Below, piece by piece: positions 245-14,952 of a stretch of 15,034 nucleotides of DNA. The first letter of the stretch is position 1; the number at the start of each line of letters is the position of its first letter. Source of the stretch: an uncultured Eubacteriales bacterium (GTDB lineage: Bacteria; Bacillota; Clostridia; Oscillospirales; Oscillospiraceae); contig UROL01000030.1 of NCBI GenBank assembly GCA_900549495.1, positions 1 through 15,034 of the forward strand, in the 5' to 3' direction. The notes under the pieces were generated by a model. That model did not search any database. It had not been told where the DNA came from and was given only the letters and a program-made list of their open reading frames with translations. The position numbers and the translations under genes are program-made.

Positions 245-937
245 ATGCCAAGAAATACACAGAAGGATATCCGGGCAGAGGCTCTGCGGCGGGAGCGGAT
301 TTTGATGGCCGGGCTCCGGCTGTTTTCCCAGCAGAGCATTGAGCAGGTCAGCATGGATATGGTGGCCCAGGCGGCGGGGGTGGGGCCCACCACCCTGTTT
401 AAGTACTATAAGAGCAAGGAAAGACTGGTGGTGGCCATCAGCGCCATGGCCTGGACAGAGGAGTGGCACCTGGCCCTGGAGCACTACGGGCCGGAAATGC
501 AGGAAACCATGACGGCCTATGAGCTGATTCAGTGCTATACCGACTGGATTATCCTGGTTTACCGGCGGAACCCGGCGCTGCTCCGGTTCAGCGGGGATTA
601 CAAATCCTACATCTGCCGCCAGAACCCGCCCCAGGAGGAGCTGCAGGAGCACCTGGGGGCCTTGCAGCCCATCAAGACCATGTTTCACCGGGCCTACCTC
701 CGGGCCAAGGACGATGGCAGCATCCGCCTGGACGTGCCGGAGGATACCCTGTATACGGCCACGGCCATCCATATGCTCTGCGTTGCAGAGCGCTTCGCCC
801 AGGGCATTGTCTGGACCCGCTATGAGACCGAAAATCATCTTCGGGAGCTGGACATTACCCAGGACATGATACTGAGTTGGTGCGCCGGGGAGAAGGCTCC
901 CCCCAGGCGGCCTCCCATATCTCGGCATGGCAGCTAG
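245..937 (+). CDS. TetR/AcrR-family transcriptional regulator
   Basis: A 230-residue one-component repressor-type protein. Residues 12-60 form the TetR DNA-binding domain: a first helix with ILMAGLRLFSQQ (19-30), then the helix-turn-helix VSMDMVAQAAGV (35-46) and the recognition helix with TTLFKYYKSKERL (49-61). The rest, about 65-215, is a helical ligand/dimer domain too divergent for a ligand to be named. The C-terminal tail from 216 is basic and proline-rich. The start codon follows a weak purine-rich site (GAAAAGAGA, about 8 bases upstream) and a good promoter. The next gene begins 38 bases after the stop codon, so this regulator is probably the first gene of the surface-polymer operon and represses it through the inverted repeat at 175-196. 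It could instead also control targets elsewhere; family assignment is firm, target is inferred. Confidence 0.9.
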   Translation: MPRNTQKDIRAEALRRERILMAGLRLFSQQSIEQVSMDMVAQAAGVGPTTLFKYYKSKERLVVAISAMAWTEEWHLALEHYGPEMQETMTAYELIQCYTDWIILVYRRNPALLRFSGDYKSYICRQNPPQEELQEHLGALQPIKTMFHRAYLRAKDDGSIRLDVPEDTLYTATAIHMLCVAERFAQGIVWTRYETENHLRELDITQDMILSWCAGEKAPPRRPPISRHGS

Positions 938-975
938 GCAAAGGCCGCCCGCCGGGGGGAAAAGGGGGAAAAGCA

Positions 976-1752
976 ATGACGAAAAAGCAGATTTATTATT
1001 CCCGCACCTATCGCAGGCTCCGTGCTGACCGCAGGCAAAGCCTGATTCTGTTCCTGGTGGTGGTGATCCCGTCTCTGGCAGCCATGATTTTCTTCATGCC
1101 GGAGATTACCCTGCTGTTCTGCCGGGTGGCTGCCCGGGTGCTGGGCCGGGCGGGGGTGATTACCGTGCGCCAGGCCATGTACAACCAGCTGTTTGGGAAT
1201 ATCCATTATCTGGCCTCGGTGGCGGGGCGGCCCTCGGCCTGGATGTGCCTGTGCAATGTGGGGGTCTGCCTGGCTGGGATGGTGCTGTGCATGGTGCTGC
1301 CCACCCGGAACCGGCCAGTGAGCATCTACCTGATTTTCAATGCCGCCATTCACCTGATTTCCAGCCTATGGTTTCTGTTTGCCGGGTGGGACTTCCCCTA
1401 TGATGCCACGGATTTCTCCCAGCTGTACCTGATTCAGGAGGTGGGAATCTGGGTGGTGTTCCTGGTGATGACCACCGGCGTCACCTCTATTCTGGGCACT
1501 CTGGGGCTGGGCTACAAGCTGCTGACGGTGGTGGCGGTAATGGCCTATAGCTGGGTCTTCGGCCTGGTGCGCTACATTGTATTTCTGTATCTGATGCGCC
1601 GGTATACCATGCTGTATATGACGGTGATGTATTTCACCTTCGGCCCCATGTTCGATTTTCTGTACCTGGTGATGATTTATGGCTGGTTTGTCAATCGCAT
1701 GGTAAAGCTCTATGAATCCGCCAAGGGGAAGGAGGAATGGGAATGGTCATAA
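976..1752 (+). CDS. Six-TM integral membrane protein of unknown family, operon gene 2
   Basis: I do not recognise this 258-residue protein. A basic N-terminus (YYSRTYRRLRADRR, 7-20) precedes a first membrane helix at about 22-41. Further hydrophobic segments lie at roughly 92-109, 117-137, 153-175, 180-208 and 212-238. A short charged tail (KGKEEWEWS) ends the protein. The start at 976 is chosen because AAAGGGGGAA lies about seven bases before it; an upstream in-frame start at 877 would overlap tetR by 61 bases and add a low-complexity extension. Its 3' end overlaps the glycosyltransferase gene by 10 bases, so the two are translationally coupled. The likely role is as a membrane partner of the glycosyltransferase, for example in export or complex assembly. 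An exosortase-like fold was considered but the catalytic Cys and His are not visible. Confidence 0.75.
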   Translation: MTKKQIYYSRTYRRLRADRRQSLILFLVVVIPSLAAMIFFMPEITLLFCRVAARVLGRAGVITVRQAMYNQLFGNIHYLASVAGRPSAWMCLCNVGVCLAGMVLCMVLPTRNRPVSIYLIFNAAIHLISSLWFLFAGWDFPYDATDFSQLYLIQEVGIWVVFLVMTTGVTSILGTLGLGYKLLTVVAVMAYSWVFGLVRYIVFLYLMRRYTMLYMTVMYFTFGPMFDFLYLVMIYGWFVNRMVKLYESAKGKEEWEWS

Positions 1753-3008
1753 GGCTGCTAAAGGGGTATATGTTCTTTATCATCGGGCTGATGCTGCTGT
1801 ATACCCTGCGCCACTTCTATTTTACGGTGCAGCGGCTTCTGGGCAGCCAGCGGCTCTACTATGGGGACATCATCACCAGCAAAATGAAAACCATCTCCGT
1901 GCTGATTCCCATGCACAACGAGGAGCTGGTGCTGCGCAACGCCCTGGATGCCCTGCTGGAATGCGACTACGACCCGGCGCTGATGGAGATTATCCCCATC
2001 AACGACCACTCCACTGACCGCACCGGGGAAATGCTGGAGGAATACCATAGGAAATACGATTTCATCCGCCCCCTGCACCGCCATACTGGCCGCCGGGGCA
2101 AGCCCTCCGGCCTGAACGATGCCATGAAGCTAGCCCGGGGGGAAATCATTGTGGTGTTTGATGCGGACTACCGCCCGGCCCGGAACCTGCTGAAGCAGAT
2201 TAGCCTGGGCTTTGAAGACCCCCATGTGGGGGCGGTGATGGGGCGGGTCATCCCCTACAACGCCAATAAGAATATGCTTACCCGGCTGATTTCCCTGGAG
2301 CGCTCCGGGGGCTACCAGGTAGACCAGCAGGCCCGGTATAACCTGGGGGCCGTGCCCCAGTACGGCGGCACCGTGGGTGGCTTCCGGCGGGACTACCTGC
2401 TGGAAACCGGGGGCTTCCGGGAGAATATTCTGGCAGAGGATACCGAGCTGACCTACCGGCTCTTCACCAACGGCTGGAAGGTGCTGTATGCCAACTCCGC
2501 CGAGTGCTACGAGGAATCCCCGGAAACCTGGAATATCCGGGGGCGGCAGATTCGCCGCTGGTCCCGGGGCCATAACCAGGTGCTGTTCCACTATTTCTTC
2601 CCCACCCTATTCAGCCGCCACATGACCCTGATTCAGAAGCTGGACGGCATTTTTCTGCTGTTTGTCTACGCCGTGCCCATGTTTACCATGGTGGGCTGGC
2701 TGGTTTCCATGGCTCTGTTCTTCCTGGGGGAGATGAACATAATGAGCGGCTGGTGGGTTATCCTGTTCCTGGGGGTATACGATTCCTTCGGCAATTTCGC
2801 CCCCTTCTTCGAGGTGGGCAGCTCCCTGGTGCTGGACGGCACCCCCAAAGAGGCCACGCTGCTGCCCCTGCTGATGTTCAATTTCTTCTTTTACATGTGG
2901 CATATCTCCCTGGGCTTCTTCGATGCGGTGGCGGATGTGGTCACCGGACGAACCACCGTCTGGGATAAGACCGCCCGGGCCAAGCGAAGCAAGGAGGCGG
3001 TGAAATGA
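1743..3008 (+). CDS. Processive family 2 glycosyltransferase (cellulose/hyaluronan synthase-like)
   Basis: A 421-residue membrane glycosyltransferase that should polymerise a nucleotide-sugar donor on the cytoplasmic face and thread the chain through its own membrane helices. An N-terminal helix (about 8-22) precedes the GT-A domain. All hallmark residues of processive GT2 enzymes are present: ISVLIPMHNEE opening the fold (51-61), Asp88 in INDHSTD, the DAD metal site (140-142), the base Asp233 in AEDTELTYRL, and QIRRW (269-273), which is the QxxRW signature of cellulose and hyaluronan synthases. C-terminal membrane segments lie near 302-329, 336-356 and 373-393. No PilZ domain is present, so direct c-di-GMP control of the BcsA type is not expected. 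The ATG at 1743 is preferred because GGAGG ends seven bases upstream; an in-frame ATG at 1737 sits almost on that site. The sugar cannot be read from sequence. Confidence 0.93.
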   Translation: MVIRLLKGYMFFIIGLMLLYTLRHFYFTVQRLLGSQRLYYGDIITSKMKTISVLIPMHNEELVLRNALDALLECDYDPALMEIIPINDHSTDRTGEMLEEYHRKYDFIRPLHRHTGRRGKPSGLNDAMKLARGEIIVVFDADYRPARNLLKQISLGFEDPHVGAVMGRVIPYNANKNMLTRLISLERSGGYQVDQQARYNLGAVPQYGGTVGGFRRDYLLETGGFRENILAEDTELTYRLFTNGWKVLYANSAECYEESPETWNIRGRQIRRWSRGHNQVLFHYFFPTLFSRHMTLIQKLDGIFLLFVYAVPMFTMVGWLVSMALFFLGEMNIMSGWWVILFLGVYDSFGNFAPFFEVGSSLVLDGTPKEATLLPLLMFNFFFYMWHISLGFFDAVADVVTGRTTVWDKTARAKRSKEAVK

Positions 3009-4036
3009 ATGAAATAAAGGGTACCCTGCTTTTGTTCGCCCTGATGTTCGCTCTGCCGCTGCTGCTGGCCGCCTCCTATGGCAAGCTGCGTAAGTCCAAG
3101 GTGCTCCATATCCGGCAGGATTACGTCAGAGACCCCCGGTATTTCGGCAGCAGCTTCCGCCGGATGGTGCAGGCTGCCCTCTCGGCAGATGAAAATGGGG
3201 TGCTCCACCTGTCCAGGCCGGAGCAGTGCGTGTTCCCGGAGGATGCCGGGGCCCTTGCAGAGCCGGCGGTGGAATGCCTGGTGCTGGCCCTGAATGGGGA
3301 ATTCCGGCCGGAAAAGCCCCATGTCTTTCACAAGGAAATCTACTGCGCCCAGGATGCCTCCCTTCCCCCAGGCAGCCAGTTTCGGGCCCTCTGCGGCCAG
3401 CGGATAGCCCTGGCCCGGGGCTGCCAATGTCTGCGCTGGGTGGACGGCAACGAGGCGGTGACCGTGGGAGAAAACTGCGATCTGGGCCTTAGCGCCTCCT
3501 CCGGGAGGCTGCTGACCCTGGGCAGCCAGACCAGCTTCCAGCGGCTTTACGCCCCGGAAATCCGGCTGGCCGTGGCCCCGGAGGGGCCCCCGCCCCATAG
3601 CCCGGTGCCGGTGCCGGAGAAGCGGCATATGCCGGTGCTGTATGACCTGCGTAACCTGTCCGAGCGCCAGAGCGACTCCCGGGGCCATGTGGGCGCCAGC
3701 CTCATCACCCGCTGGAATCTGCGGATTCTGGAGGGCATGACGGTGGAGGGGGACATTAGCGGTGACCGGGGCGTTCGGGTGATGAAAAACGCCGTGGTGT
3801 ACGGCAACGTATTTGCCGGGGCCGACGTGCTGCTGGAGGAGGGAGCCCGGGTGCTGGGCAATGTGTTCAGCCAGGGCAGCGTCCGCCTGGGCCCGGGGGC
3901 CAGTGTGGGCCAGCCCGGAGAAATCCACTCTGTAATTGCCCGGAAGAAAATTTACTTCGCCGGTGACAACCGGGTTTATGGCTTTGTCAGCGCCCTGCGG
4001 GGCGGCACCACCGGCGACAGGGGGGACGGACGATGA
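3005..4036 (+). CDS. Membrane-anchored bactofilin-like (polymer-forming) beta-helix protein
   Basis: A 343-residue protein with one N-terminal membrane segment (about 6-23) and then a soluble part. Residues 228-330 show the short-period pattern of a beta-helix: repeated turns such as GMTVEGDISGDRGVRV, NAVVYGNVFAGADVLLEEG and ARVLGNVFSQGSVRLGPGAS, ending with IARKKIYFAGDNRVYGFV, much like bactofilins (polymer-forming cytoskeletal proteins). Classical bactofilins are shorter and lack a transmembrane helix; this one carries about 200 extra residues, including a second, weaker strand-rich stretch (152-190) and a proline-rich linker (192-206). It starts by a four-base ATGA overlap with the glycosyltransferase gene and has AAGGAGG seven bases upstream. 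In context it may be a scaffold that localises the polymer synthase. The fold assignment is by pattern and should be confirmed by structure prediction. Confidence 0.75.
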   Translation: MNEIKGTLLLFALMFALPLLLAASYGKLRKSKVLHIRQDYVRDPRYFGSSFRRMVQAALSADENGVLHLSRPEQCVFPEDAGALAEPAVECLVLALNGEFRPEKPHVFHKEIYCAQDASLPPGSQFRALCGQRIALARGCQCLRWVDGNEAVTVGENCDLGLSASSGRLLTLGSQTSFQRLYAPEIRLAVAPEGPPPHSPVPVPEKRHMPVLYDLRNLSERQSDSRGHVGASLITRWNLRILEGMTVEGDISGDRGVRVMKNAVVYGNVFAGADVLLEEGARVLGNVFSQGSVRLGPGASVGQPGEIHSVIARKKIYFAGDNRVYGFVSALRGGTTGDRGDGR

Positions 4037-5118
4037 AAAGAAGAAAGCTGCCATACCTCTGGGCCCTGCTGCTGGCCCTGCCCCTGGTGGCGCTGTGCTT
4101 CCTGCTGCAAGGCATCCCCGCCGAGGAAACGAAGGCAGCCCGGCCCTATGTGCCGGAGCTATGGGATTTGTATGAGCAGAGCGGACTGACAAATGGGCAA
4201 AGCCTGTCGGAGGAAAAGGTGCTGGAGACGGAATCGGTGGTTGCCTATGCTGACCGGGTGTTTTCTCTGAACACCGTTCTGCCCAATCAGGCCGATTACG
4301 CCCTGCAAGTGGCCCAGGCGGTGCAGCGGGACTGCCCGGGGGTAAAGAACTTCTATCTGCTGCCCATTCCCGGGCGGGGGGTGCTGGAACCGGACTATCC
4401 CCAGCAGCGGGAGCAATTTGAAACCTTTGTAGAAGGACTGTCGGCAGGAAATGTGATTCAGGTTCTGCCCCAGCTTCAGGAAAACGGCGGCAGAAATCTA
4501 TACTACAGAACGGAAAACGGCTGGAACATGGAGGGCGCTTTCTATGGCTATCAGGCCATTTTGGAGGCGCTGGGCATGGAGCCGGACAATCTGCAAGGCT
4601 ACCGAACTTATCTGTTCGGAGATTTCCACGGTAGCGAGCTGACGGCGCAGAAAGCCGTTTGCAAGTCGGAGGAACTGCGGAAGCGGCTGCGGGGCATTCC
4701 CAATGACCCCTACACCCTTTACATCAACAGCGAAAACCCCAACCGGGAAATTCTCACAGAGAAAACCGACGAGGGCATCCGAACGGTAGAACGCAGAACC
4801 GTGCGTATGAGTTGCATGGGCCCCAACGGCATTGTGGGAGGGAATGATTTCCTGCACAGCATGGTTAACGGTAGAGGGGACGGCGGCGTTATCCTGATTG
4901 CAGATCATGTAGGGAAGCTGCTGGCACCCTATTTAAGCGAAGTCTATGAATGGGTGTATGTAGTGAATGTCCGGGAGGATACATCCTTCCGGCAGGATTT
5001 GCCCAGAGTATTGGAGGAAATCGGGGCGGATACGGTGATTTACGCCGCTCCTGAAAACCGGCTGGGAAACGAATCCTATATGCGGGCGCTGAACCCATTT
5101 GTCCGAGGGGAGGAATAG
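4033..5118 (+). CDS. DHHW/AlgX-like protein with degenerate catalytic site
   Basis: A 361-residue protein with an N-terminal signal anchor (basic MKRRK, hydrophobic 8-26), so most of it lies outside the membrane. The layout matches the DHHW family, relatives of the SGNH-fold alginate acetylation proteins AlgJ and AlgX. Supporting stretches are YYRTENGWNMEGAFYGYQAI (157-176), where the family has YYRTDHHWT..GAyyAYqA, then FGDFHGSEL (195-203), and VILIADHVGKLLAPYLSEVY (286-305), where the family has a vliGDS/KDSfan...pfL..y block. The DHHW motif reads ENGW (161-164) and the DS of the nucleophile block reads DH (291-292), so the Asp, His and Ser expected of an acyltransferase/esterase are all absent. 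It therefore looks like a non-catalytic, perhaps polysaccharide-binding, family member. It overlaps the upstream gene by ATGA and the next gene starts three bases after its stop codon. The family call is by remembered consensus. Confidence 0.75.
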   Translation: MKRRKLPYLWALLLALPLVALCFLLQGIPAEETKAARPYVPELWDLYEQSGLTNGQSLSEEKVLETESVVAYADRVFSLNTVLPNQADYALQVAQAVQRDCPGVKNFYLLPIPGRGVLEPDYPQQREQFETFVEGLSAGNVIQVLPQLQENGGRNLYYRTENGWNMEGAFYGYQAILEALGMEPDNLQGYRTYLFGDFHGSELTAQKAVCKSEELRKRLRGIPNDPYTLYINSENPNREILTEKTDEGIRTVERRTVRMSCMGPNGIVGGNDFLHSMVNGRGDGGVILIADHVGKLLAPYLSEVYEWVYVVNVREDTSFRQDLPRVLEEIGADTVIYAAPENRLGNESYMRALNPFVRGEE

Positions 5119-5121
5119 CGG

Positions 5122-5745
5122 ATGATTCTATGGATACAGGAAATACTCACCCGGTTTGCTGACTTCACCGCTCTGGCGGGGCGCATTCCCCTGGAAATTC
5201 TGGCAGATACCCGGCTGTATCTGGTGCTGGGGGCGCTGCTGCTGGCCCTGGGCATCCACTGCTACCGGTGGCTTGCCGGTGGAGCGGCCTTTCTGGCGGT
5301 GGCAGCCGGGCTGACAGCCTGGATGCAGGGCCGGGCCGCCTGGGGCCAGACCGTCACAGCCTTTGTCCTTATCGGTATGCTGGTGGCGGCCATGGTCTTC
5401 AACTGGAAGCGGGTGGATGCCGTCCTGCTGTGCGCCTTTGCCGCCGCCATGCCCCTGTACCTGCTGGGCCAGGCCTGGTGGTTGGCAGGGCTGGTGGGGC
5501 TTCTGGCCGGAGCAATGGCCTATTTCTTCCCCCTGGCGGGGGTGCTGGTTGGCTCCTCGCTGCTGGGCGGGATGCTGCTGGCGGATACCGGGGTGCTGCT
5601 CCCCTGGGTGTGCTGGGGGCTGGTGCCGGTGGGCATTGGGGTGCAATACCTGCTCTTTGGTCGGCACCAGCGGCTATTTTCCAAATGCGTCCCGGACTGG
5701 GTGCGTGACCTTCCGGCACGCAGGAAGGCGGGGCGGCGGAAATGA
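5122..5745 (+). CDS. Seven-TM membrane protein (TMEM198/DUF4203-like), operon gene 6
   Basis: A 207-residue, very hydrophobic protein. After a short amphipathic N-terminus come about seven membrane helices, near 32-47, 50-67, 76-93, 98-117, 119-135, 138-155 and 160-179, followed by a basic cytoplasmic tail (RHQRLF and RKAGRRK) consistent with the positive-inside rule. Several helices carry small-residue repeats such as GALLLALG and GVLVGSSLLGG. The overall look recalls TMEM198/DUF4203-type proteins, but I cannot confirm the family from motifs. A strong site GGGGAGGA sits seven bases before the start codon, and the last four bases overlap the next gene as ATGA. The position between the DHHW-like and VTC genes suggests a membrane component of the same complex. 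Function unknown. Confidence 0.75.
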   Translation: MILWIQEILTRFADFTALAGRIPLEILADTRLYLVLGALLLALGIHCYRWLAGGAAFLAVAAGLTAWMQGRAAWGQTVTAFVLIGMLVAAMVFNWKRVDAVLLCAFAAAMPLYLLGQAWWLAGLVGLLAGAMAYFFPLAGVLVGSSLLGGMLLADTGVLLPWVCWGLVPVGIGVQYLLFGRHQRLFSKCVPDWVRDLPARRKAGRRK

Positions 5746-6422
5746 TTCAGGTGCTGCGTAAGGAAAAAAAGTACATCCTGCCCCGGCGGGCGGCCATGGA
5801 GCTGGAGCGGCAGCTGTCCGGGGTGATGCAGCTGGATACCAACGGAGTGGAGGGCCGCTACTTCATCCGCTCCCAGTATTTCGACTCCCTGACCGACGGG
5901 GACTTGCATGACAATCTGGCGGGGCTATGGGAGAAAAGCAAGCTCCGGCTGCGGATTTATTCCCTGGACGACCAAAAGGCCAAGCTGGAATGGAAGCGGA
6001 AATTCGGCCTGGACAGCCGGAAAAGCTCCCTGACCGTTACCAGGGCCCAGGCCCTGCAAATGGAGCGGGGGGATGCCTCCTTCCTGCTGGACATGGATTC
6101 CCAGCTGGCCCGGCAGATTTACTGCCGCTTCACGGCGGGGGCCTACCGGCCCAAGACCATTGTGGAATACCAGCGCAAGGCGCTGCTCTATCCGGCGGGG
6201 GATGTACGCATCACCTTCGACACGGATATCCGGGGCTCGGTGTGCCCCTGGGGGCTGTTTGAGCCCCTGGCCACCTTCCCCATTACCGGAAACGAATATG
6301 TTTTGATGGAGGTAAAATACTCCGAGCTCATCCCCCAGCTGCTGGTGGACATTCTGCATCAGGCGGACAGCCTGCAAACCAGCAACAGCAAATATTTGCA
6401 GGCGAGACTGCTGAATCTGTAA
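5742..6422 (+). CDS. VTC-domain protein (putative polyphosphate polymerase)
   Basis: A 226-residue stand-alone VTC domain of the triphosphate tunnel metalloenzyme superfamily, related to the catalytic domain of yeast Vtc4, which makes polyphosphate from ATP. The tunnel residues are intact: RKEKKY (6-11), SQYFDS (44-49), KLRLRIY (67-73), LEWKRK (82-87), VEYQRKAL (141-148), TFDTDIR (158-164), MEVKYS (189-194) and the terminal SNSKY (214-218). The alternating Lys/Arg and Glu residues would line the tunnel and bind triphosphate and metal. No SPX domain or membrane segment is present, so in contrast to yeast it lacks the inositol-pyrophosphate sensor; the adjacent DUF4956 membrane protein may provide the anchor. 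The gene overlaps its neighbour by ATGA. The enzymatic activity of bacterial VTC proteins in such clusters is inferred from the fold. Confidence 0.92.
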   Translation: MIQVLRKEKKYILPRRAAMELERQLSGVMQLDTNGVEGRYFIRSQYFDSLTDGDLHDNLAGLWEKSKLRLRIYSLDDQKAKLEWKRKFGLDSRKSSLTVTRAQALQMERGDASFLLDMDSQLARQIYCRFTAGAYRPKTIVEYQRKALLYPAGDVRITFDTDIRGSVCPWGLFEPLATFPITGNEYVLMEVKYSELIPQLLVDILHQADSLQTSNSKYLQARLLNL

Positions 6423-6436
6423 AGGAGTGCGACAAT

Positions 6437-7117
6437 ATGAGAGCGTACATACTGGAAAATCTTACCAATACGGAATCCCTGGATCTGGCGGTGATTCTGC
6501 TGAACAACGCCGTATCCCTGGTGATGGCGTTTTTCATCATGTTCACCTATAAGATTTCCTACACCGGCAGTGCCTACAGCCGCCGGTTCAATGTGGCCAT
6601 TGGCTCCATTACCCTGATTACCACCATGATTATGAGCGTCATCAGCAACAATGTGGCGCTGTCGTTGGGCATGGTGGGCGCCCTGTCCATCATCCGGTTC
6701 CGTACTGCGGTGAAGGATGTCCGGGACGCCACCTATATCTTCTGGGCCATTGCGGTGGGCATTGGCTGCGGCGTGTCCCAGTATGCCCTGATTGCCATTG
6801 GCTCGGTGTTCCTGCTGGTGTTCCTCCAGCTCACCAGCCGGGGCTTTACCTCCTACCGGCAGATGCTGGTGGTGCAGGGGGAGAATGGGGCCCTGTCCCG
6901 GATTGAGGCGGCGGTTACCGACTATTTCGACGGCAAGGTCAAGCCCTCCATGCGGAATATGACCGAGGTGAGCTGTGAGCTGGTGTACTCCGTGCCCGAG
7001 GGAATGCTGGAGCGGGGAGCAAAAAAGAACCAGATGGATATCACCGAGGCGCTGATTCAGATTCCCGGGGTGAACCGGGTGAATCTGGTGGAGCAGAAGG
7101 ACGAGCTGAGCCAGTAG
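6437..7117 (+). CDS. DUF4956 domain membrane protein
   Basis: A 226-residue protein carrying the DUF4956 signature LGMVGALSIIRFRTAVKD (77-94), followed by RDATYIFWAIAVGIG (96-110). Membrane segments are predicted near 17-37, 54-70, 100-113 and 116-132. The remaining 95 residues form a soluble, probably cytoplasmic domain containing DYFDGKVKPS and a final IPGVNRVNLVEQKDE segment that could be an ACT-like alpha/beta unit. AAAGGAG lies nine bases before the ATG. DUF4956, VTC-domain and CotH proteins are often encoded together in bacteria, which supports a functional complex here. The biochemical role is not established; a membrane anchor or channel for the VTC product is one possibility. Confidence 0.9.
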   Translation: MRAYILENLTNTESLDLAVILLNNAVSLVMAFFIMFTYKISYTGSAYSRRFNVAIGSITLITTMIMSVISNNVALSLGMVGALSIIRFRTAVKDVRDATYIFWAIAVGIGCGVSQYALIAIGSVFLLVFLQLTSRGFTSYRQMLVVQGENGALSRIEAAVTDYFDGKVKPSMRNMTEVSCELVYSVPEGMLERGAKKNQMDITEALIQIPGVNRVNLVEQKDELSQ

Positions 7118-7142
7118 GCCCGGCTGCGGGAAAGGGGGCGAT

Positions 7143-8588
7143 TTGCCTTTGGAGCGGATGAAAAAAACCCTGCTGTGCCTTCTGGCAGTGGCGGCGGTGC
7201 TGGTGGTGACGGTGCTGGGCAACGGCGTGGTGAATGCCAGCGTCCCCAAGGAGAAGGTGCAGAAAACCGTCACCCCGGAGCAGCTGGCGCTGTGGGGCGA
7301 GCCGGACACGGAGCGGATGGAATTCTACGGCGTACCCATATTTGAAACCAACCTGCCGGTAATCTACATCAACACCCAGGGCCAGAAAATCGGCAAGGAG
7401 AACAAGATTGTGGGCACCATTGCCCTGGGGGCTGACGATGGGCAGATGCACTCCGTCCAGGAGACACCCCAGGCCGTCTACCGGGCGAGAATCAATTACC
7501 GGGGAGCCTCCTCCTATAGTAAATTCGACAAGAAGCAATACCGAATCAAATTCCTGAAGAACAATTCCGACGGTGACCGGAATGTGGCCCTGTGCGGCAT
7601 GGGAAAGCACAGCGAATGGGTGCTCAACGGCCCCTATCTGGACAAAACCCTGGTGCGTAACAAGCTGATGTATGACCTGGCCCGGGAGATGGGCCACTGG
7701 GCCCCGGACAGCCGGTTCTGCGAGCTGTTTGTGGATGGGGAATACCATGGCGTTTATGTGGCCATCGAGCCGGTTACCAACGGAGATACCCGGCTGCGGC
7801 TTTCCAAATTCGGTCTGCTCTCCGGGAAAACCCCCTATCTGGTGGAGCGGAACCGGGATTCCAAAGTGGATCAGGCGTTGATGACCTATGGCAAGGAAAT
7901 GGGCTATACCCATTTGTCGCTGTACATCGACTATCCCTCCTCTTCCAAGCTCACCGCCAAGCAGGAGCAGTACATCCGGGAGGATATCTCCGCCTTTGAG
8001 CGGGTGCTGTATGGGGAGAATTTCCTGGACGAGCTGACAGGCTACCGAAACTGGATTGACATGGATAGCTGGGTGGACTATTTCATCCTCAACGAATTTG
8101 CCATGATTCGGGATGCGGGCAACCTGTCCACCTATGCCTATAAGAAGCTGAACGGAAAAATCCAGCTGGCGGTGTGGGATTTCAACAACGGCTTTGACCA
8201 CTATCCGGAGTATGTGCTGGATGGCACCGGGTTTGAAACCATTAAAAACTCCTGGCTGGATCGGGTTTGCCAGGATCCGGTATTTGTAGACCGGGTGGTG
8301 GAGCGGTATCGGCAGCTGCGGGAAACCACATTGTCCCAGGAGCACATCGATGGACTGCTGGCGGGCTATCGCAGCCAGCTGGGGGATGCGGTCTGGCGGA
8401 ACTTCCAGATTTGGGGCGGCTCCTTCAATGATAATATCCTGGTGGGCCTGGATGCAGAGGGGAACCCCCGCAACATCCGAAGCTACCAGCAGGCGGTGGA
8501 GCAGCTGGATACCATGATTTCCCGGCGGCTTGCCTATCTGGACGAGCACATCACCGACCTATACGACCTGTGCCAGAAAGAATCCTGA
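7143..8588 (+). CDS. CotH-type kinase-like protein, exported or membrane-anchored
   Basis: A 481-residue CotH-family protein; spore-coat CotH of Bacillus subtilis is an atypical protein kinase. Residues 7-30 are a hydrophobic signal/anchor after KK, so the domain probably faces outward. Family blocks are visible in order: YRARINYRGASSYSKFDKK (113-131), HSEWVLNGPYLDKTLVRNKL (156-175), CELFVDGEYHGVYVAIE (193-209), PYLVERNRD (231-239), IDMDSWVDYFILNEFAMIRD (305-324) and LAVWDFNNGFDHY (342-354). The last block has Asn where many CotH proteins have a second Asp (WDFD), so metal binding may differ. The TTG at 7143 has AAAGGGGG four to five bases upstream; the internal ATG at 7158 has only a GGAG three bases away. 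Either start leaves the signal segment intact. Last gene of the operon, 25 bases after the DUF4956 gene; likely to modify a secreted protein or polymer. Confidence 0.9.
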   Translation: MPLERMKKTLLCLLAVAAVLVVTVLGNGVVNASVPKEKVQKTVTPEQLALWGEPDTERMEFYGVPIFETNLPVIYINTQGQKIGKENKIVGTIALGADDGQMHSVQETPQAVYRARINYRGASSYSKFDKKQYRIKFLKNNSDGDRNVALCGMGKHSEWVLNGPYLDKTLVRNKLMYDLAREMGHWAPDSRFCELFVDGEYHGVYVAIEPVTNGDTRLRLSKFGLLSGKTPYLVERNRDSKVDQALMTYGKEMGYTHLSLYIDYPSSSKLTAKQEQYIREDISAFERVLYGENFLDELTGYRNWIDMDSWVDYFILNEFAMIRDAGNLSTYAYKKLNGKIQLAVWDFNNGFDHYPEYVLDGTGFETIKNSWLDRVCQDPVFVDRVVERYRQLRETTLSQEHIDGLLAGYRSQLGDAVWRNFQIWGGSFNDNILVGLDAEGNPRNIRSYQQAVEQLDTMISRRLAYLDEHITDLYDLCQKES

Positions 8589-8617
8589 AGCATTTTGGCA
8601 AATACACTCCCTTTTTC

Positions 8618-8656
8618 CCAATAAAAAGAAAACCGGTGTCCCTCAGCGGACACCGG
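8618..8656 (-). terminator. Intrinsic terminator, minus strand
   Basis: A nine-base-pair stem, CCGGTGTCC (8633-8641) with GGACACCGG (8648-8656), has a six-base loop. On the minus strand the stem is followed by TTTTCTTTTTATT, a good U-tract; on the plus strand an A-rich stretch follows. It is therefore a minus-strand terminator lying only 44 bases past the CotH stop codon, and would also stop minus-strand transcription from entering the operon antisense. Confidence 0.75.
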
Positions 8657-8664
8657 AACAAAAG

Positions 8665-8710
8665 AAATAAGCTCTCAACCAGGCTCTGACCTCTGATTGA
8701 GAGCTTATTT
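8665..8710. terminator. 14-bp perfect inverted repeat, probable terminator of the polymer operon
   Basis: AAATAAGCTCTCAA (8665-8678) pairs perfectly with TTGAGAGCTTATTT (8697-8710) around an 18-base loop that contains CTCTGA twice. With GCTCTCAA/TTGAGAGC as the core stem, TTATTTCATTT follows on the plus strand and TTATTTCTTTTG on the minus strand, so it can act in both directions. On the plus strand it is the first hairpin with a U-rich tail after the CotH gene. Confidence 0.6.
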
Positions 8711-8803
8711 CATTTCACTGTCAATTTGCAGTTTCACTTGTAACCACCCTTTCTACGGATTCAAGCAGGTACGTTTTTTTCTTTCGTCCTTCCTTGTATC
8801 TAC

Positions 8804-8831
8804 ATAATACCACACTCTCCTGTATTTACAA
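8804..8831 (-). promoter_or_regulatory. Minus-strand promoter with extended -10
   Basis: Read on the minus strand: -35 TTGTAA (8831-8826, four of six consensus bases), a 16-base spacer, and -10 TATTAT (8809-8804, five of six) preceded by TGG, an extended -10. Transcription would begin near 8797 and run through the small region that ends at the minus-strand terminator. Confidence 0.5.
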
Positions 8832-8880
8832 GATGGGATTGTCACCAAAGAAACGCCGGGTTTTTCCTACAAAAAGTCAG

Positions 8881-8909
8881 TTGAATCCAGGGCTGGAATA
8901 TGGTATCAT
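8881..8909 (+). promoter_or_regulatory. Promoter-like site facing a terminator
   Basis: TTGAAT (8881-8886, four of six), a 17-base spacer, and TATCAT (8904-8909, five of six) with a TGG extended -10. A start near 8916 would fall right at the hairpin 8917-8939, so any transcript would end after about 30 bases. It may be the leftover of a deleted gene. Confidence 0.35.
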
Positions 8910-8916
8910 AAACATG

Positions 8917-8945
8917 TTGGGCAGCTTTTCGCTGCCCAATTTTTT
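8917..8945. terminator. Intrinsic terminator between opposed units
   Basis: TTGGGCAGC (8917-8925) pairs with GCTGCCCAA (8931-8939) around TTTTC, followed by six T on the plus strand. It directly abuts the stop codon of the minus-strand hydrolase (8944-8946), so it probably also serves as that gene's 3' hairpin, although the minus-strand tail (CATGTTTATG) is poor in U. Confidence 0.7.
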
Positions 8946-9696
8946 ACCGCAGCTGTAGCAGGAAATCCCTGACGGCGGCGGTGAGCTGGTCCAGGTGGTG
9001 GGTGAAGCAGTGGTCGTCGCCGGGGATGGCGGCCAGGCGGGCGTTGGCGTACTGGGCCACCAGCTCCGGTGCCAGGGCGTAGGGAACGGCCTCGTCATCG
9101 GTGCCGTGGACGATGAGCACCGGGCCACGGAAGCGGCTGACGGCGTAGTCCACCGGGAGCATTCTGGCGGCACGGATGTAGTTGGCGCTCAGGGGGCGGC
9201 CACCGAAGGCCACCAGCTCCGGCAGGGAGTCGTCATCGAAGGGGATGCCCAGCAGGTTGCCGCTTCTGGCGCCGTAGACGATGTTCACAGCGGGGGACAT
9301 GGGGATCAGGGCCTGGATGCGGTCGGCCATCATGCCGCCGGTGAGGATGGTGTTCAGGCCGCCCTGGGAGTGACCGGCCAGCACAATTTTGGAGACGAAG
9401 GGCCAGCTTCTTGCGGTGTCGATGACCTGCATGGCTTGCAGCATCCAAATCATTACATTGTGGTTATAGAATTCGCCGTCGCTGGTGCCGTGGCCGTACT
9501 GGTCCACCCGCAGCACGGCGTACCCGACCTCTACGGCGGTCTGGGCTACGGCGGTGATGTGGGGCTCGTCCATATTCCCGGTGAGTCCGTGGAGCAAAAT
9601 CAGCAGGGGCAGCTTCTCCGCCCCGGTCTCCGGCATATCCAGCTTCCCCCGCAGGATGATGCCGTCACAGGAAAATTCCATAGGCTTAGAATTCAT
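8944..9696 (-). CDS. Alpha/beta hydrolase, cinnamoyl/feruloyl esterase-like
   Basis: A 250-residue cytoplasmic serine hydrolase without a signal peptide. The oxyanion-hole block LILLHGLTGN (32-41) is followed by VDQYGHGTSDGEF (64-76), the nucleophile elbow GHSQGG with Ser110 (108-113), the acid block HGTDDEAVP with Asp201 (197-205), and the histidine block GDDHCFTHH with His229 (226-234), so the triad Ser-Asp-His is complete. The HGxTGN start, the 250-residue size and the small cap region resemble gut bacterial cinnamoyl/feruloyl esterases and their serine-aminopeptidase-like relatives; the substrate is likely a small ester but is not proven. GGGAGGA lies about eight bases before the ATG and a near-consensus promoter precedes it. 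It is monocistronic, convergent with the polymer operon and divergent from hrcA. Confidence 0.9.
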   Translation of the reverse strand: MNSKPMEFSCDGIILRGKLDMPETGAEKLPLLILLHGLTGNMDEPHITAVAQTAVEVGYAVLRVDQYGHGTSDGEFYNHNVMIWMLQAMQVIDTARSWPFVSKIVLAGHSQGGLNTILTGGMMADRIQALIPMSPAVNIVYGARSGNLLGIPFDDDSLPELVAFGGRPLSANYIRAARMLPVDYAVSRFRGPVLIVHGTDDEAVPYALAPELVAQYANARLAAIPGDDHCFTHHLDQLTAAVRDFLLQLR

Positions 9697-10068: not shown

Positions 10069-10092
10069 GCACTCAGAGAGAATGAGTGCTAA
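10066..10092. promoter_or_regulatory. CIRCE operator (HrcA binding site)
   Basis: A perfect TTAGCACTC-N9-GAGTGCTAA (arms 10066-10074 and 10084-10092) just after the -10 box and 16 bases before hrcA. HrcA, folded with the help of GroE, binds this element and represses; repression is lifted on heat shock. Confidence 0.98.
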
Positions 10093-10108
10093 GAAAGGAG
10101 GAGGGTTC

Positions 10109-11182
10109 ATGGAGCTGACAGAGCGCAAGAAGAAAGTCCTGCGTAGTGTCGTAGACCTGTATATCCGCACCGCTGAGCCGGTGGGCTCCAAGGCCATTAC
10201 CGAGCTGCCGGATATGAACTACTCCTCTGCCACCATTCGCAACGAGATGGCGGATCTCACCACCATGGGCTACCTGGAGCAGCCCCATACCAGCGCCGGG
10301 CGGGTTCCCTCCGCCGCAGGCTACCGGATGTATGTGGATGAGCTGATGATGGACTACCGCCTCAGCGTGGACGAAACCAAATCCATCAACACCGCCATTG
10401 AAGAAAAAATGAGCCAGGTGGATAAGCTGGTGGAGCGGGTTGCCAAGCTGGTCTCCCAGGCCACCAATCTTCCCGCCATCAGCGCCGCCGCCCGGCATGG
10501 CAGCGCCACGGTGCTGAAATACAATCTGCTGCAATCCGGCACCGGGGGCTTCATCCTGGTGCTGACCCTGACCCAGGACCAGGTGGTAAACAAGCTGATT
10601 AAGCTGCCCGTGGCCATTGCCGACTCGGATTTGAATTTGCTCACCGCCCTGCTCAACGCCACCATGACGGAGATTCCCGCCGAGGAATTCACCGCCGAGA
10701 GAATGGAAAAGGTGATGCGCTCCGCCGGAGCCGCCGCCAGCCTGGTGCCGGTGATTGTGGACTTCACCACCGAAACCTTAAAGAAGAACGCCGCCGCCGA
10801 TGTGGCCGTGGCCGGTCAGGCAAGGCTCCTGGGCCTGCCGGAGTACCGGGACGTGGACAAGGCCCAGCGGGTCCTCAGCTCCATTGATGAGGATGCCCTG
10901 GGGAATCTCCCCGCAGTGATGCAGGGCAGCAACGGCACCCGGGTAATCGTAGGCCCGGAAAACGTGGCGGATGAACTGAAAGACACCTCCGTGGTCATGA
11001 CGAAATTCGACATTGGCGACGGGATGCAGGGGATGATTGGCGTGGTAGGCCCCACCAGAATGGACTACGCAAAAATCACCGCCCGATTGAGCTACTTCGC
11101 AGAGAGCCTCAGTAAGATGTTCGCAAAACCGGAAACACCCCAGCTCCCAGGCTCTCTGGAGCAGGATAAAACTTCCCAATAA
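10109..11182 (+). CDS. hrcA: Heat-inducible transcription repressor HrcA
   Basis: A 357-residue repressor of class I heat-shock genes. The N-terminal winged-helix domain spans about 1-75, with KKKVLRSVVDLYIRTAEPVG (7-26), then SSATIRNEMADLTTMGYLEQ (39-58) and HTSAGRVPSAAGYRMYVDEL (60-79), a stretch diagnostic for HrcA. The remaining GAF-like and dimerisation parts run to a C-terminal DIGDGMQGMIGVVGPTRMDYAKI stretch (its first 20 residues are enough to place the family) near 299-321. The ATG at 10109 has AAAGGAGG seven bases upstream; an in-frame ATG at 10082 lies inside the CIRCE and is rejected. It is first in the hrcA-grpE-dnaK order, and both CIRCE-like sites lie immediately upstream, so it is autoregulated. 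grpE starts 15 bases after its stop codon. Confidence 0.97.
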   Translation: MELTERKKKVLRSVVDLYIRTAEPVGSKAITELPDMNYSSATIRNEMADLTTMGYLEQPHTSAGRVPSAAGYRMYVDELMMDYRLSVDETKSINTAIEEKMSQVDKLVERVAKLVSQATNLPAISAAARHGSATVLKYNLLQSGTGGFILVLTLTQDQVVNKLIKLPVAIADSDLNLLTALLNATMTEIPAEEFTAERMEKVMRSAGAAASLVPVIVDFTTETLKKNAAADVAVAGQARLLGLPEYRDVDKAQRVLSSIDEDALGNLPAVMQGSNGTRVIVGPENVADELKDTSVVMTKFDIGDGMQGMIGVVGPTRMDYAKITARLSYFAESLSKMFAKPETPQLPGSLEQDKTSQ

Positions 11183-11197
11183 AGGAGAGACCTGCAT

Positions 11198-11749
11198 ATG
11201 TCTAAGAAAGAGAAACTGCAAGACCAGCCCACCCCCGAGGAAATCAAAGCCCCGGAGACCGAGCTGACCGAGACCAACGAACCCGTCCCCGAAGAGCAGG
11301 AGGCCCCCAAGGCCCCCGAAATCAACTGGGAAGAGAAATACAACGCCGAGCACGACACCTACCTGCGGCTGGCTGCGGAGTTCGATAACTTCCGCAAGCG
11401 CACCACCAAGGAAAAGGATCAGTCCTACGGCAACGGCAAGGCCGATGCCATTGTCAAGCTCCTGCCCATTTATGACAATCTGGAGCGGGCCCTGAACCAG
11501 CCCACCGAGGATGCCGCCTATAAAAAGGGCGTGGAGATGACCATGACCGAGCTGGTGAAGATTTTCACCGGGCTGGGGGTGGAAATCTTCGGAGCTCCCG
11601 GCGAACCCTTCGACCCCGCCATCCACAATGCGGTGATGCACATTGAAGACGAGAGCCTTGGCGAAAACGTCATTGCTCAGGTCTTCCAGAAGGGCTTCCG
11701 GCTGGGCGACAAGGTTGTCCGCTTCGCCATGGTGCAGGCAGCCAACTAA
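11198..11749 (+). CDS. grpE: Nucleotide exchange factor GrpE
   Basis: A 183-residue cytosolic dimeric exchange factor that releases ADP from DnaK. Residues 1-42 are an acidic, proline- and glutamate-rich disordered tail, then a long coiled-coil helix leads into AEFDNFRKRTTKEK (60-73), the classic GrpE motif. KLLPIYDNLERAL (87-99) forms the four-helix bundle, and the beta-wing domain carries FDPAIHNAVMHIED (138-151) and VFQKGFRLGDKVVRFAMVQ (162-180). Full length for the family. AAAGGAGA lies about ten bases before the ATG. It sits between hrcA and dnaK as in most Bacillota and is co-regulated with them. Confidence 0.97.
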   Translation: MSKKEKLQDQPTPEEIKAPETELTETNEPVPEEQEAPKAPEINWEEKYNAEHDTYLRLAAEFDNFRKRTTKEKDQSYGNGKADAIVKLLPIYDNLERALNQPTEDAAYKKGVEMTMTELVKIFTGLGVEIFGAPGEPFDPAIHNAVMHIEDESLGENVIAQVFQKGFRLGDKVVRFAMVQAAN

Positions 11750-13603
<1,854 letters not shown>

Positions 13604-13619
13604 TTAAATGGTTCCCAGA

Positions 13620-13648
13620 AAGGGGCGGCCCAATCGCCGCCCCTTATT
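13620..13648 (+). terminator. Terminator after dnaK
   Basis: AAGGGGCGGC (13620-13629) pairs with GCCGCCCCTT (13636-13645) around CCAATC, followed by ATT. The stem is very strong but the U-tract is short, so partial read-through into dnaJ is plausible. A second small hairpin (GGCGAC 13649-13654, GTCGCC 13658-13663) follows immediately. Confidence 0.7.
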
Positions 13649-13690
13649 GGCGACTGTGTCGCCTGACAATGCCGCTACGGGGCTTGTACG

Positions 13691-13722
13691 GATACATCGG
13701 TTCCCTAACCCGCCCGGTGACG
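13691..13722. repeat. Third copy (partial) of the intergenic repeat
   Basis: GATACATCGGTTCCCTAACC (13691-13710) continued by CGCCCGGTGACG (13711-13722) matches the distal half and 3' extension of repeat unit B; only a few bases in the ATCG block and one A/G difference separate them. The bases before 13691 do not match the TTTTTAGTTACGCTTT start. A further hairpin follows (AACCATA 13735-13741, TATGGTT 13750-13756). Confidence 0.7.
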
Positions 13723-13797
13723 CACTGCACACCAAACCATAGGGACGAGTATGGTTGCCCCTGTGGCTGGCTTTTCTTACTTACGAGGTGAACGACT

Positions 13798-14952
13798 TTG
13801 GCAGATAAACGTGACTATTACGAGGTGCTGGGTGTCCAGAAGGGCGCATCAGCGGATGAAATCAAGAAGGCCTATCGGAAGATGGCCATGAAATATCACC
13901 CCGACCGGAACCCCGGCGACAAGGACGCCGAGGAGAAGTTCAAGGAGGTGGGCGAGGCCTACGAGGTGCTGTCCGACGACGAGAAGCGCGCCCGCTACGA
14001 CCAGTATGGCTTCGCCGGGGTGGACCCCAATTTTGCAGCCGGTGGCGGTGGCAGCGGCTTTGGCGGCTTCGGCGGCGGCTTTGGCGGGTTCGGTGACTTT
14101 GGCGACATTTTCAGTGACCTGTTCGGCGGCGGCGGAAGCACCCGCCGGGGGGGCCAGAGCAGCGCCCGCCGGGGTGAGAACATTATGGCCCGGCTGGATT
14201 TGACCTTTGAAGAGGCCGCCTTTGGCTGCGACAAGGAGCTGAGTATTCCCAGAATTGAGAACTGCGCCGCCTGCAACGGCACCGGCAGCGCCGACGGCAA
14301 TATCGAGACCTGCCCCAAGTGCCACGGCAGCGGCCAGGAGCAGGTGATTCAGAACTTTATGGGGATGCAGATGCGCTCCACCGCCCCCTGCTCCCAGTGC
14401 GGCGGCAAGGGCAGGATTATCAAGACCCCCTGCACCACCTGCAAGGGCAAGGGCAAGGTGCGCCGCACCAACAAGGTGCTGGTGAAGGTGCCCGCCGGTG
14501 TCAACGATGGGCAGAGCGTCCGGGTTCGTGGCGCAGGCAATGTGGGCAGCGGCGGAGCCCCCGCCGGGGATTTGCTGGCCGAGGTTCATATCAAGCCCCA
14601 CAAGCTGTTCAAGCGCCGGGACTTTGACGTGTACTGCGAGGTGCCTATCTCCTTCGCCCAGGCGGCCCTGGGCGCGGAAATCGAGGTGCCCACCCTGGAC
14701 GGCAAGGTGACCTACACCATCCCAGAGGGAACCCAGACCGGCCGGGAGTTCGTCCTCCGGGGCAAGGGCATCCCCCAGGTGAACAACCCCAAGCTCCGGG
14801 GCGACCACCACTTCAACGTGGTAGTGGAGACCCCCACCCGGCTCACCAACGAGCAGAAGGAGCTGCTGCGCCAGTTCGACGGCACCGTCAGCAAGAATGT
14901 CACCCCCAAGCGCAAGGGGTTCCAAGATATTCTCAATGATTTCTTCAAATAA
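13798..14952 (+). CDS. dnaJ: Molecular chaperone DnaJ (Hsp40, type I)
   Basis: A full-length 384-residue type I Hsp40. The J domain (1-70) has KYHPDRN with HPD at 34-36, which stimulates DnaK ATPase. A Gly/Phe-rich linker (82-119, many GGFGG repeats) follows. The zinc domain holds all four CxxCxGxG repeats: CAACNGTG (156-163), CPKCHGSG (172-179), CSQCGGKG (198-205) and CTTCKGKG (212-219). The C-terminal beta-sandwich includes [19 protein letters not shown] (229-247), [20 protein letters not shown] (258-277) and LRGKGIP (320-326). The start is TTG at 13798, giving [19 protein letters not shown] lies six bases upstream and no ATG fits. A 194-base gap with terminator and repeat separates it from dnaK, and no good promoter is visible, so expression probably depends on read-through. 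Confidence 0.97.

Follow-up and report, generated by a model that had tools for sequence, protein, structure and literature searches.

Genes for a polyphosphate polymerase domain protein (VTC), a DUF4956 membrane protein, and a CotH-family kinase are already known as neighbors of exopolysaccharide synthases, in Pel operons and in the NELoc-2 locus of Clostridium perfringens. In Gram-positive Pel operons, cotH and genes for a poly-phosphate polymerase, DUF4956, and DUF4832 adjoin the synthase genes, and regulation by CotH has been suggested (PMC7112168). NELoc-2 carries VTC, CotH, and a family 2 glycosyltransferase (GT2) (PMC2879425) and has also been described as containing polyphosphate-polymerase-domain genes, CotH, a HEAT protein, and a glycosyltransferase (PMC11677781). 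Here, we analyzed a cluster of eight genes (positions 976 to 8588) in a 15,034-nucleotide window from an uncultured Eubacteriales bacterium (contig UROL01000030.1), in which VTC, DUF4956, and CotH follow a GT2 synthase. Comparison with related clusters argues for joint inheritance of these genes, and we tentatively propose that the locus directs the synthesis of an exopolysaccharide tailored with phosphate.

The window resembles the Pel operon pelDEADAFG in that VTC, DUF4956, and CotH are accessory genes of a synthase-dependent exopolysaccharide operon (PMC7112168). Pel uses PelF and PelG, whereas the eight genes of the window include a GT2 and no PelF- or PelG-type match, and the excerpted text of the Pel study (PMC7112168) names no gene of the P1, solenoid, or DHHW-like types described below. 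Profiles of PelF, PelG, and PelA had no match in 21 loci related to the window (L001 to L021), and Pel genes stood beside VTC in 6 of 40 comparison loci. NELoc-2 (CP4_0458 to CP4_0468), compared by its published description, shares with the window VTC, CotH, and a GT2 called chitin synthase; its 226-residue membrane protein called tubulin/FtsZ is, in our reading, probably DUF4956, whereas a HEAT-repeat gene, a 685-residue gene, a sigma factor, and a resolvase are reported for NELoc-2 only (PMC2879425). Four NELoc-2 look-alikes (L091, L092, L094, and L112) combine a different GT2 and a HEAT gene with a GH72-like gene, the match of which is sub-threshold in L091. Thus, the original prediction that VTC, DUF4956, and CotH co-occur in bacteria is borne out by Pel (PMC7112168), and their joint setting with a GT2, the role of which it regarded as not worked out, is similar to that published for NELoc-2 (PMC2879425). 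Poly-N-acetylglucosamine (PNAG) operons (pgaABCD and icaADBC) are comparable in their IcaA/PgaC-like GT2 and in the deacetylase-like gene present in five relatives lacking VTC. They differ in that the GT2 of the window scores far below the PgaC cut-off, P1 matches no NCBIfam family, solenoid and DHHW-like genes are added, and an epimerase is linked in relatives. The Pss system of Listeria (PMC4125290, PMC5039582) also combines an IcaA-like GT2 with an N-acetylmannosamine (ManNAc) polymer, poly-beta-1,4-ManNAc with galactose in Listeria and only predicted here, but it has a BcsB-like PssD and a cyclic di-GMP (c-di-GMP) receptor, PssE, and neither family was matched among the eight genes of the window. 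In our searches of the open-licence literature, we found no description of the P1-GT2-solenoid core, of the replacement pattern reported below, or of a polyphosphate-fed CotH, and met no functional study of the VTC-DUF4956 pair.

The eight open reading frames (ORFs), all on the + strand and at the coordinates of the original prediction, encode in this order a polytopic membrane protein (P1), GT2, a beta-solenoid protein (BAC), a DHHW-like protein, a second polytopic membrane protein (P5), VTC, DUF4956, and CotH. The ORFs overlap by 16 bases (P1/GT2) or 4 bases (GT2/solenoid, solenoid/DHHW, and P5/VTC) or are separated by 3 (DHHW/P5), 14 (VTC/DUF4956), and 25 bases (DUF4956/CotH). ORF positions and spacings confirmed the description of the locus as eight genes with ATGA overlaps or very short gaps, and the overlaps make it likely that the ORFs form one transcription unit. 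Much the same gene order recurs among relatives, which places the arrangement above chance. In a Pfam scan, GT2, DHHW, VTC, DUF4956, and CotH all exceeded their own cut-offs; the bactofilin match of the window copy did not. A processive polysaccharide synthase, a polyphosphate-type polymerase domain, an exported CotH-like kinase, and two polytopic membrane proteins of no known family had been predicted, and each of these assignments agrees with the profile matches, motifs, and conserved residues given below.

The survey of gene neighborhoods had been proposed beforehand as the test of the prediction, with rare co-occurrence as the adverse outcome. A P1 profile built from 24 sequences yielded 21 loci in the contig search and 5 distinct loci from whole genomes, for a total of 26 (L017 and L124, contigs of equal length with P1 in the same position, were counted once; L022 repeats L002, and L023 repeats L017). 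In 20 of these, the contig shows what follows the solenoid and DHHW genes, the contigs of L007, L009, L012, L016, L017, and L126 ending too early. Of the 20 informative loci, 13 have VTC after the P1-GT2-solenoid core, and the prediction was therefore not refuted. DUF4956 and CotH lie behind VTC in 12 loci (L001 to L004, L006, L008, L011, L013 to L015, L020, and L125), and L005 ends after VTC. The core is present without the VTC module, as far as the contigs run, in L010, L018, L019, L021, L127, L128, and L129; of the six corresponding genomes searched (all except that of L021), five (G007, G011, G012, G970, and G998) had no VTC or CotH match anywhere. P1 is rare: it was detected in 2 of 391 class genomes (one being the query genome itself) and in 7 of 299, 3 of 63, 2 of 246, and 1 of 76 genomes, counts that include already-known genomes and G904, a 60-residue fragment interrupted by two stops that appeared in two of the searches and was left out of the loci.

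For 12 loci including the window, the pairwise distances of GT2 correlated with those of the solenoid protein (r = 0.890), VTC (0.845), DUF4956 (0.825), and CotH (0.836), and 0 of 5000 permutations gave a value as high for any of the four. GT2 was the most conserved of the five proteins, with a mean identity of 0.70 versus 0.37 to 0.59. In a tree of 53 VTC sequences, those of the P1 cluster fell on one side of one branch (support 91/95), separate from the VTCs of the Pel, NELoc-2-like, and PilZ-GT2 settings. Together, these sequence comparisons indicate that GT2, VTC, DUF4956, and CotH are an old co-inherited unit. The distance correlations speak for joint inheritance rather than for joint function, since vertical descent of linked genes gives the same result. 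One of the clusters, L013, lies on a contig binned as a Micrarchaeota metagenome-assembled genome and is close to that of L014 (Clostridiaceae); the contig is probably misbinned.

GT2 (1737 to 3008; 423 residues; PF13641, 99 bits) is well supported by its sequence as a processive polysaccharide synthase. Processive GT2 synthases are marked by DxD, ED, and QxxRW motifs. The window protein has DADY at residue 142, AEDTE at 233, and QIRRW at 271, and among 21 sequences including that of the window, DAD[YG] and [AT]EDTE were present in all and Q[IV]RRW in 20, the exception being L021. The closest curated model is that of the poly-GlcNAc synthase PgaC/IcaA (TIGR03937), the equivalog cut-off of which was not reached (122.4 versus 422.3 bits). 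P1 (976 to 1752; 258 residues), for which 37 homologues were found, is presumed to be the partner subunit of GT2; its model (pLDDT 87) contains about six long helices and one beta hairpin. Neither P1 nor P5 (5122 to 5745; 207 residues) exceeded the cut-off of any Pfam or NCBIfam family, and P1 had no NCBIfam match at E<=1. P5 accompanies VTC in 11 of the 13 VTC-bearing loci, L005 and L008 being the exceptions (in L125, a direct search gave 71 bits), and its orthologue in L014 has a sub-threshold TM7S3/TM198 match (21.9 versus 29.2 bits). The 16-base overlap of P1 and GT2 (1737 to 1752), through which the C terminus of P1 and the N terminus of GT2 share coding bases, is kept in 15 of 17 loci with both ends called; it is 7 bases in L015 and 13 in L018. 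An exosortase/XrtG assignment, considered owing to the GT2 neighbor and the membrane topology of P1, was rejected: GT2 scored 72.2 bits against the 364-bit cut-off of the XrtG-associated glycosyltransferase model (TIGR03111), and P1 had no NCBIfam match and no cysteine in the invariant or near-invariant columns of its alignment.

BAC (3005 to 4036; 343 residues) has one transmembrane (TM) anchor followed by a beta-solenoid of bactofilin-like sequence. With a PF04519 cut-off of 27.9 bits, the window copy scored 19.2 bits and three scanned orthologues scored 17.8 (L002), 17.3 (L014), and 31.4 (L018). The structure model (pLDDT 89.3) consists of a TM helix, a second helix, and the solenoid; comparison with solved structures gave no significant Foldseek match, and a second comparison returned generic solenoids. 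Several relatives have an additional C-terminal leucine-rich repeat domain (LRR_5 in L002), which the window copy lacks. DHHW/AlgX-type domains are extracytoplasmic. L013 and L014 encode a single polypeptide that joins the solenoid to the DHHW domain through a second TM segment; the solenoid is therefore best read as cytosolic, and a basic stretch after the TM anchor of BAC agrees with this placement. Thus, of the membrane-bound beta-helix scaffold originally predicted, the anchor and the modeled solenoid stand, whereas the bactofilin family falls below its cut-off in the window and the scaffold is placed in the cytosol.

The DHHW-like protein (4033 to 5118; 361 residues; PF14286, 39.6 bits) conforms to the extracytoplasmic protein that had been predicted, but it lacks the acetyltransferase residues. 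O-acetyltransferases of the DHHW/AlgX type use the Asp-His pair of a DxHW motif and a nucleophilic Ser. The window protein has ENGWN in place of DHHWT and ADH in place of the DS motif, and none of 14 VTC-linked copies (window, L001 to L006, L008, L011, L013 to L015, L020, and L125) combines Asp, His, and Ser, all missing at least one catalytic residue; 12 copies were scored by alignment column, and L005 and L125 were read by eye from printed strings. The L014 protein keeps DH with Glu at the place of Ser, and several others keep Ser without Asp-His. The DHHW-like protein of the window is therefore probably not an acetyltransferase.

Alginate- and cellulose-type O-acetylation modules comprise an MBOAT protein and AlgX/AlgJ-like proteins. 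The relative L127 is organized in this way, with MBOAT (PF03062, 96.9 bits) and DHHW (PF14286, 97.3 bits) on the core, whereas the window has no MBOAT and a degenerate DHHW protein. The motif is intact (DHHWT, TDSYG) in L127, the only core-linked copy with MBOAT as its direct partner. A polysaccharide deacetylase-like gene is present on five other VTC-less cores, with Pfam matches above the cut-off in L018 and L019 and below it in L128, and with detection by our own profile only in L021 and L129. Polymer-modifying genes thus occur on six of the seven VTC-less cores; the VTC-less core of L010 carries GGDEF/EAL (c-di-GMP) genes. These distributions suggest that VTC-DUF4956-CotH probably fills the place of a different tailoring module. 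The simplest reading is that the DHHW protein of clusters with VTC-DUF4956-CotH has abandoned acetylation and persists as a structural part. An outer-membrane-barrel-like gene upstream of the L018 core scored below its Pfam cut-off (25.7 versus 28.7 bits) and is not claimed.

VTC (5742 to 6422; 226 residues) is a triphosphate-tunnel domain protein without a TM segment (PF09359, 111.4 bits for a cut-off of 23 bits), and its profile matched yeast Vtc4 at E=1e-6. Residues R6, E8, K10, R69, R71, K85, K87, K94, R145, E190, K192, and K217 were invariant over 13 sequences. What separates polymerase from hydrolase is a basic instead of an acidic character of the residues at the exit of the tunnel (PMC4641920); in an alignment read by hand against the four glutamates of that study, the corresponding positions of VTC are R6 and K192, basic and invariant, and the acidic E8, the fourth position being unplaced. 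DUF4956 (6437 to 7117; 226 residues; PF16316, 52.1 versus 30.6 bits) has three strong hydrophobic segments, a C-terminal soluble domain, and three basic residues (R87, R89, and K93) invariant over 13 sequences. As with the yeast VTC polymerase/translocase (PMC4641920), a tunnel domain is encoded next to a membrane partner; unlike in yeast, the membrane part is DUF4956, and polyphosphate export is proposed by analogy. CotH (7143 to 8588; 481 residues; PF08757, 186.8 versus 23.8 bits) has an N-terminal TM or signal anchor, and its catalytic part is predicted to lie outside the membrane. The annotated start is TTG 7143, and relatives begin near the residue encoded by ATG 7158. The CotH profile aligned to the structure of Bacillus CotH (5jd9; E=1.8e-12), and N317, D324, K339, W345, and D346 were invariant over 11 sequences. 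The D228Q variant of Bacillus subtilis CotH is inactive (PMC7821199), and D324 would, in our reading, be the equivalent of that residue.

A UDP-GlcNAc 2-epimerase of the WecB type (PF02350; 402.7 bits in L002) is linked to the cluster in 16 of the 26 distinct loci, namely, 12 of the first 21 plus L127, L019 (G012), L129 (G998), and L125 (G814), the last three on the basis of genome coordinates (within ~10 kb of P1, same strand). The gene is located upstream of P1 in L006, L007, L009, L010, and L015 and next after CotH in L001 to L003, L008, and L020. The epimerase that follows CotH in G867 (L126) lies on a contig other than that of P1 and was excluded from the count. No WecB-type epimerase was found in the 40 VTC comparison loci. 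All 19 P1-bearing genomes had a WecB match at E<=1e-110, versus 15 of 30 genomes without P1, a line set after the list was seen; at the search threshold of 1e-20, the counts were 19 of 19 versus 23 of 30. When only the family of G004 is considered, the match was present in 6 of 6 P1-bearing genomes versus 0 of 7 (1e-110) or 2 of 7 (1e-20) of the others. The linkage in relatives points to UDP-ManNAc as a donor and to a polymer containing ManNAc. The original prediction could not include this link, since the window lacks the gene.

The module was also examined in a set of the 60 best-scoring VTC loci, some of them near relatives of each other, and in 40 comparison loci taken at spaced ranks, not at random, from the class of G002 (30 loci) and the class of G007 (10 loci). 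VTC and DUF4956 were adjacent in 59 of the 60 loci, the exception (L051) having VTC near the sequence end, and in all 40 spaced loci. VTC genes were present in 127 of 245 genomes sampled from one class; VTC is thus common in that class and, where examined, nearly always beside DUF4956. CotH accompanied the pair in 25 of the 40 spaced loci, 21 identified by profile and 4 by Pfam, the latter in a scan of 18 neighbor proteins from 16 of the 19 loci without a profile match (L114, L121, and L123 were left out). Fusions of CotH to lamin-tail and other domains occurred in at least 4 of the 40. A recognized synthase lay in the same gene run as VTC in 11 of the 40 (six Pel, four NELoc-2-like, and one PilZ-GT2); L095 has a GT2 two genes from VTC, and L122 has a PelF-like glycosyltransferase further off. 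The constant feature of these loci is VTC plus DUF4956, usually with an exported partner and often, not always, with a synthase.

We propose that the locus is one co-inherited exopolysaccharide operon with phosphate tailoring, a joint claim to which we attach somewhat less than an even chance. GT2 and P1 would polymerize and extrude a polymer containing ManNAc. The cytosolic solenoid would scaffold the synthase and pair across the membrane with the DHHW-like pseudoenzyme outside, to which it is fused in two relatives. On the inner face, VTC would convert ATP to polyphosphate; DUF4956 would anchor VTC and, in the manner of the yeast VTC complex, pass the chain to the outside. Outside the membrane, CotH would phosphorylate the polymer or a surface protein holding it. 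VTC-DUF4956-CotH would then occupy the place taken in sister loci by MBOAT and an active DHHW protein (O-acetylation) or by a deacetylase. A polyphosphate-fed CotH is proposed because an extracellular kinase needs a donor, which the VTC-DUF4956 pairing would supply; we infer on this basis that polyphosphate may be exported and used by CotH. The original prediction of a polymer that is made, exported, and then phosphorylated or held by a phosphorylated anchor is well supported with respect to the synthase, and its phosphorylation step still rests on inference. Phosphorylation of the polymer or its anchor is made somewhat more likely by the tailoring genes of the VTC-less loci and by the conserved catalytic residues of VTC and CotH. 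The replacement pattern on the core thereby offers a testable reading, that of a phosphate-based tailoring module for surface polymers. If correct, it would provide a possible means by which extracellular kinases could draw on exported polyphosphate, a ManNAc-type exopolysaccharide in anaerobic bacteria, and a cytosolic solenoid scaffold in synthase-dependent secretion. A broader version, which we regard as quite doubtful, would make VTC-DUF4956-CotH a self-contained extracellular phosphorylation device with polyphosphate as the donor of CotH, swappable between synthases against O-acetylation or de-N-acetylation and producing here a phosphorylated ManNAc polymer; such a device would solve the absence of ATP outside the cell.

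Several observations weigh against the proposed operon with phosphate tailoring. Replacement by MBOAT is seen in a single locus, L127, the contig of which starts at P1 and the genome of which (G666) has VTC and CotH elsewhere. In L118, MBOAT and a degenerate AlgX-like gene stand together with VTC-DUF4956-CotH beside a GT2 with PilZ, and MBOAT genes lie upstream of VTC-bearing clusters, with other genes between, in L003 (3577 to 4980; ~5 kb) and L008 (632 to 2032; ~8 kb). The DHHW protein of L016 is also degenerate (DGGWT), on a contig that stops before any place for VTC. A role of DUF4956 as the polyphosphate path has no structural support, a sequence profile search giving no PDB match at E<=1. 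No polysaccharide synthase was recognized near VTC in 28 of the 40 comparison loci by the profiles used, and a Cthe_2159 carbohydrate-binding protein (PF14262) takes the place of CotH in 7 (L088, L090, L097, L098, L106, L109, and L113). VTC-DUF4956 thus has, as judged from these neighbors, at least two kinds of exported partner, and because of both counts the module cannot be considered strictly glycan tailoring. With respect to the donor sugar, the window has no epimerase (WecB) gene, and the WecB matches are on other contigs in the genomes of L004, L014, and L128. Epimerase genes are, moreover, common and serve teichoic acids and other glycans too.

Among the alternatives, CotH could be a regulator that phosphorylates a synthase subunit, such as the DHHW-like protein or the loops of P1, with VTC-DUF4956 tuning local phosphate or polyphosphate and the polymer being phosphate free. 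The presence of the module beside different synthases (Pel, PilZ GT2, and chitin-synthase-like GT2) is easier to reconcile with a regulator than with a polymer-specific enzyme, the VTC-less core of L010 has its c-di-GMP genes, and CotH regulation has been suggested for Pel (PMC7112168). Polymer-modifying genes on nearly all VTC-less cores argue the other way, and a kinase predicted to be outside would be awkwardly placed to control a cytosolic catalytic domain. We consider this explanation unlikely but credible. Action of VTC-DUF4956-CotH on surface proteins only, at multiple sites as for Bacillus CotH on CotB, with adjacency reflecting a shared phosphoprotein-glycan surface layer, is rather unlikely. 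It draws on the characterized CotH, which phosphorylates the serine-rich part of CotB (PMC7821199), on the CotH fusions to lamin-tail and other domains, and on the many VTC loci in which no synthase was recognized nearby; set against this, the eight window translations include no serine-rich repeat protein, and the VTC group is cluster specific and co-diverges with GT2, in favor of a tie to this synthase, although linkage alone would give both.

Phosphate tailoring aside, the polymer itself could be PNAG-like poly-GlcNAc, the linked epimerase supplying ManNAc to another envelope glycan. PgaC/IcaA, as the closest curated GT2 model (122 bits), and the deacetylase-like genes of VTC-less relatives, together with the sub-threshold barrel match in L018 that is reminiscent of pga operons, are in keeping with this possibility; the 422-bit PgaC cut-off is not reached, and an epimerase gene borders the cluster directly, on one side or the other depending on the lineage. 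Likeness to IcaA is in any case indecisive on the sugar: PssC of Listeria also shares about 30% identity with IcaA (PMC4125290), yet the Listeria exopolysaccharide has been reported to consist of poly-ManNAc and galactose (PMC5039582). We hold a PNAG-like product to be rather improbable. A fortuitous neighborhood near a synthase, with no joint role, might be suspected from the rarity of P1-type clusters (2 of 391 class genomes, one being the query genome); it is contradicted by the neighborhood survey, with its conserved gene order and co-divergence over 12 loci, and appears highly improbable.

Some of the related clusters carry additional genes. A conserved protein of ~400 residues, P9, follows CotH or WecB in L002 (19477 to 20700), L004, L006, L011, L014, L015, L020, L125, and L127. 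It was located downstream of CotH in seven loci and identified by profile in L125 and L127, and the window lacks it. The five P9 copies scanned gave no Pfam match above the cut-off. An assignment of P9 as a glycosidase akin to Listeria PssZ (GH126) is unproven, the PDB profile search giving a weak match to an alpha-1,6-mannanase (E 0.043). Directly after P9 in the Butyrivibrio cluster, an ORF cut by the locus end (L004:19491-20774) matches the calcineurin-like phosphoesterase family (PF00149, 21.9 versus 21.5 bits) and, below the cut-off, a purple-acid-phosphatase N domain; it may encode a phosphatase beside the phosphate module. The upstream MBOAT gene of L008 is followed by an unassigned gene for 365 residues. 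L118, from the class of Granulicatella (G007), is an unusual cellulose-like cluster that includes a metallo-beta-lactamase-fold gene and the PilZ GT2.

In the window, the eight ORFs are preceded by a gene for a TetR-type regulator of 230 residues (245 to 937, + strand; PF00440, 46.9 bits), which ends 38 bases upstream of P1. It is possibly a local regulator in the same unit as the eight ORFs; the protein had no match in loci L001 to L021 (phmmer, E 1e-4). No Rfam family reached its gathering score anywhere within the window. Downstream of CotH, a possible intrinsic terminator (8916 to 8940, + strand) is a consensus match only, and positions 700 to 9000 contain 9 such sites versus 7.7 expected from shuffles. 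An alpha/beta hydrolase gene (8944 to 9696, - strand) is convergent to CotH, and the ORFs at 10082 to 14952 (+ strand) read as an ordinary heat-shock operon comprising hrcA, grpE, dnaK, and dnaJ.

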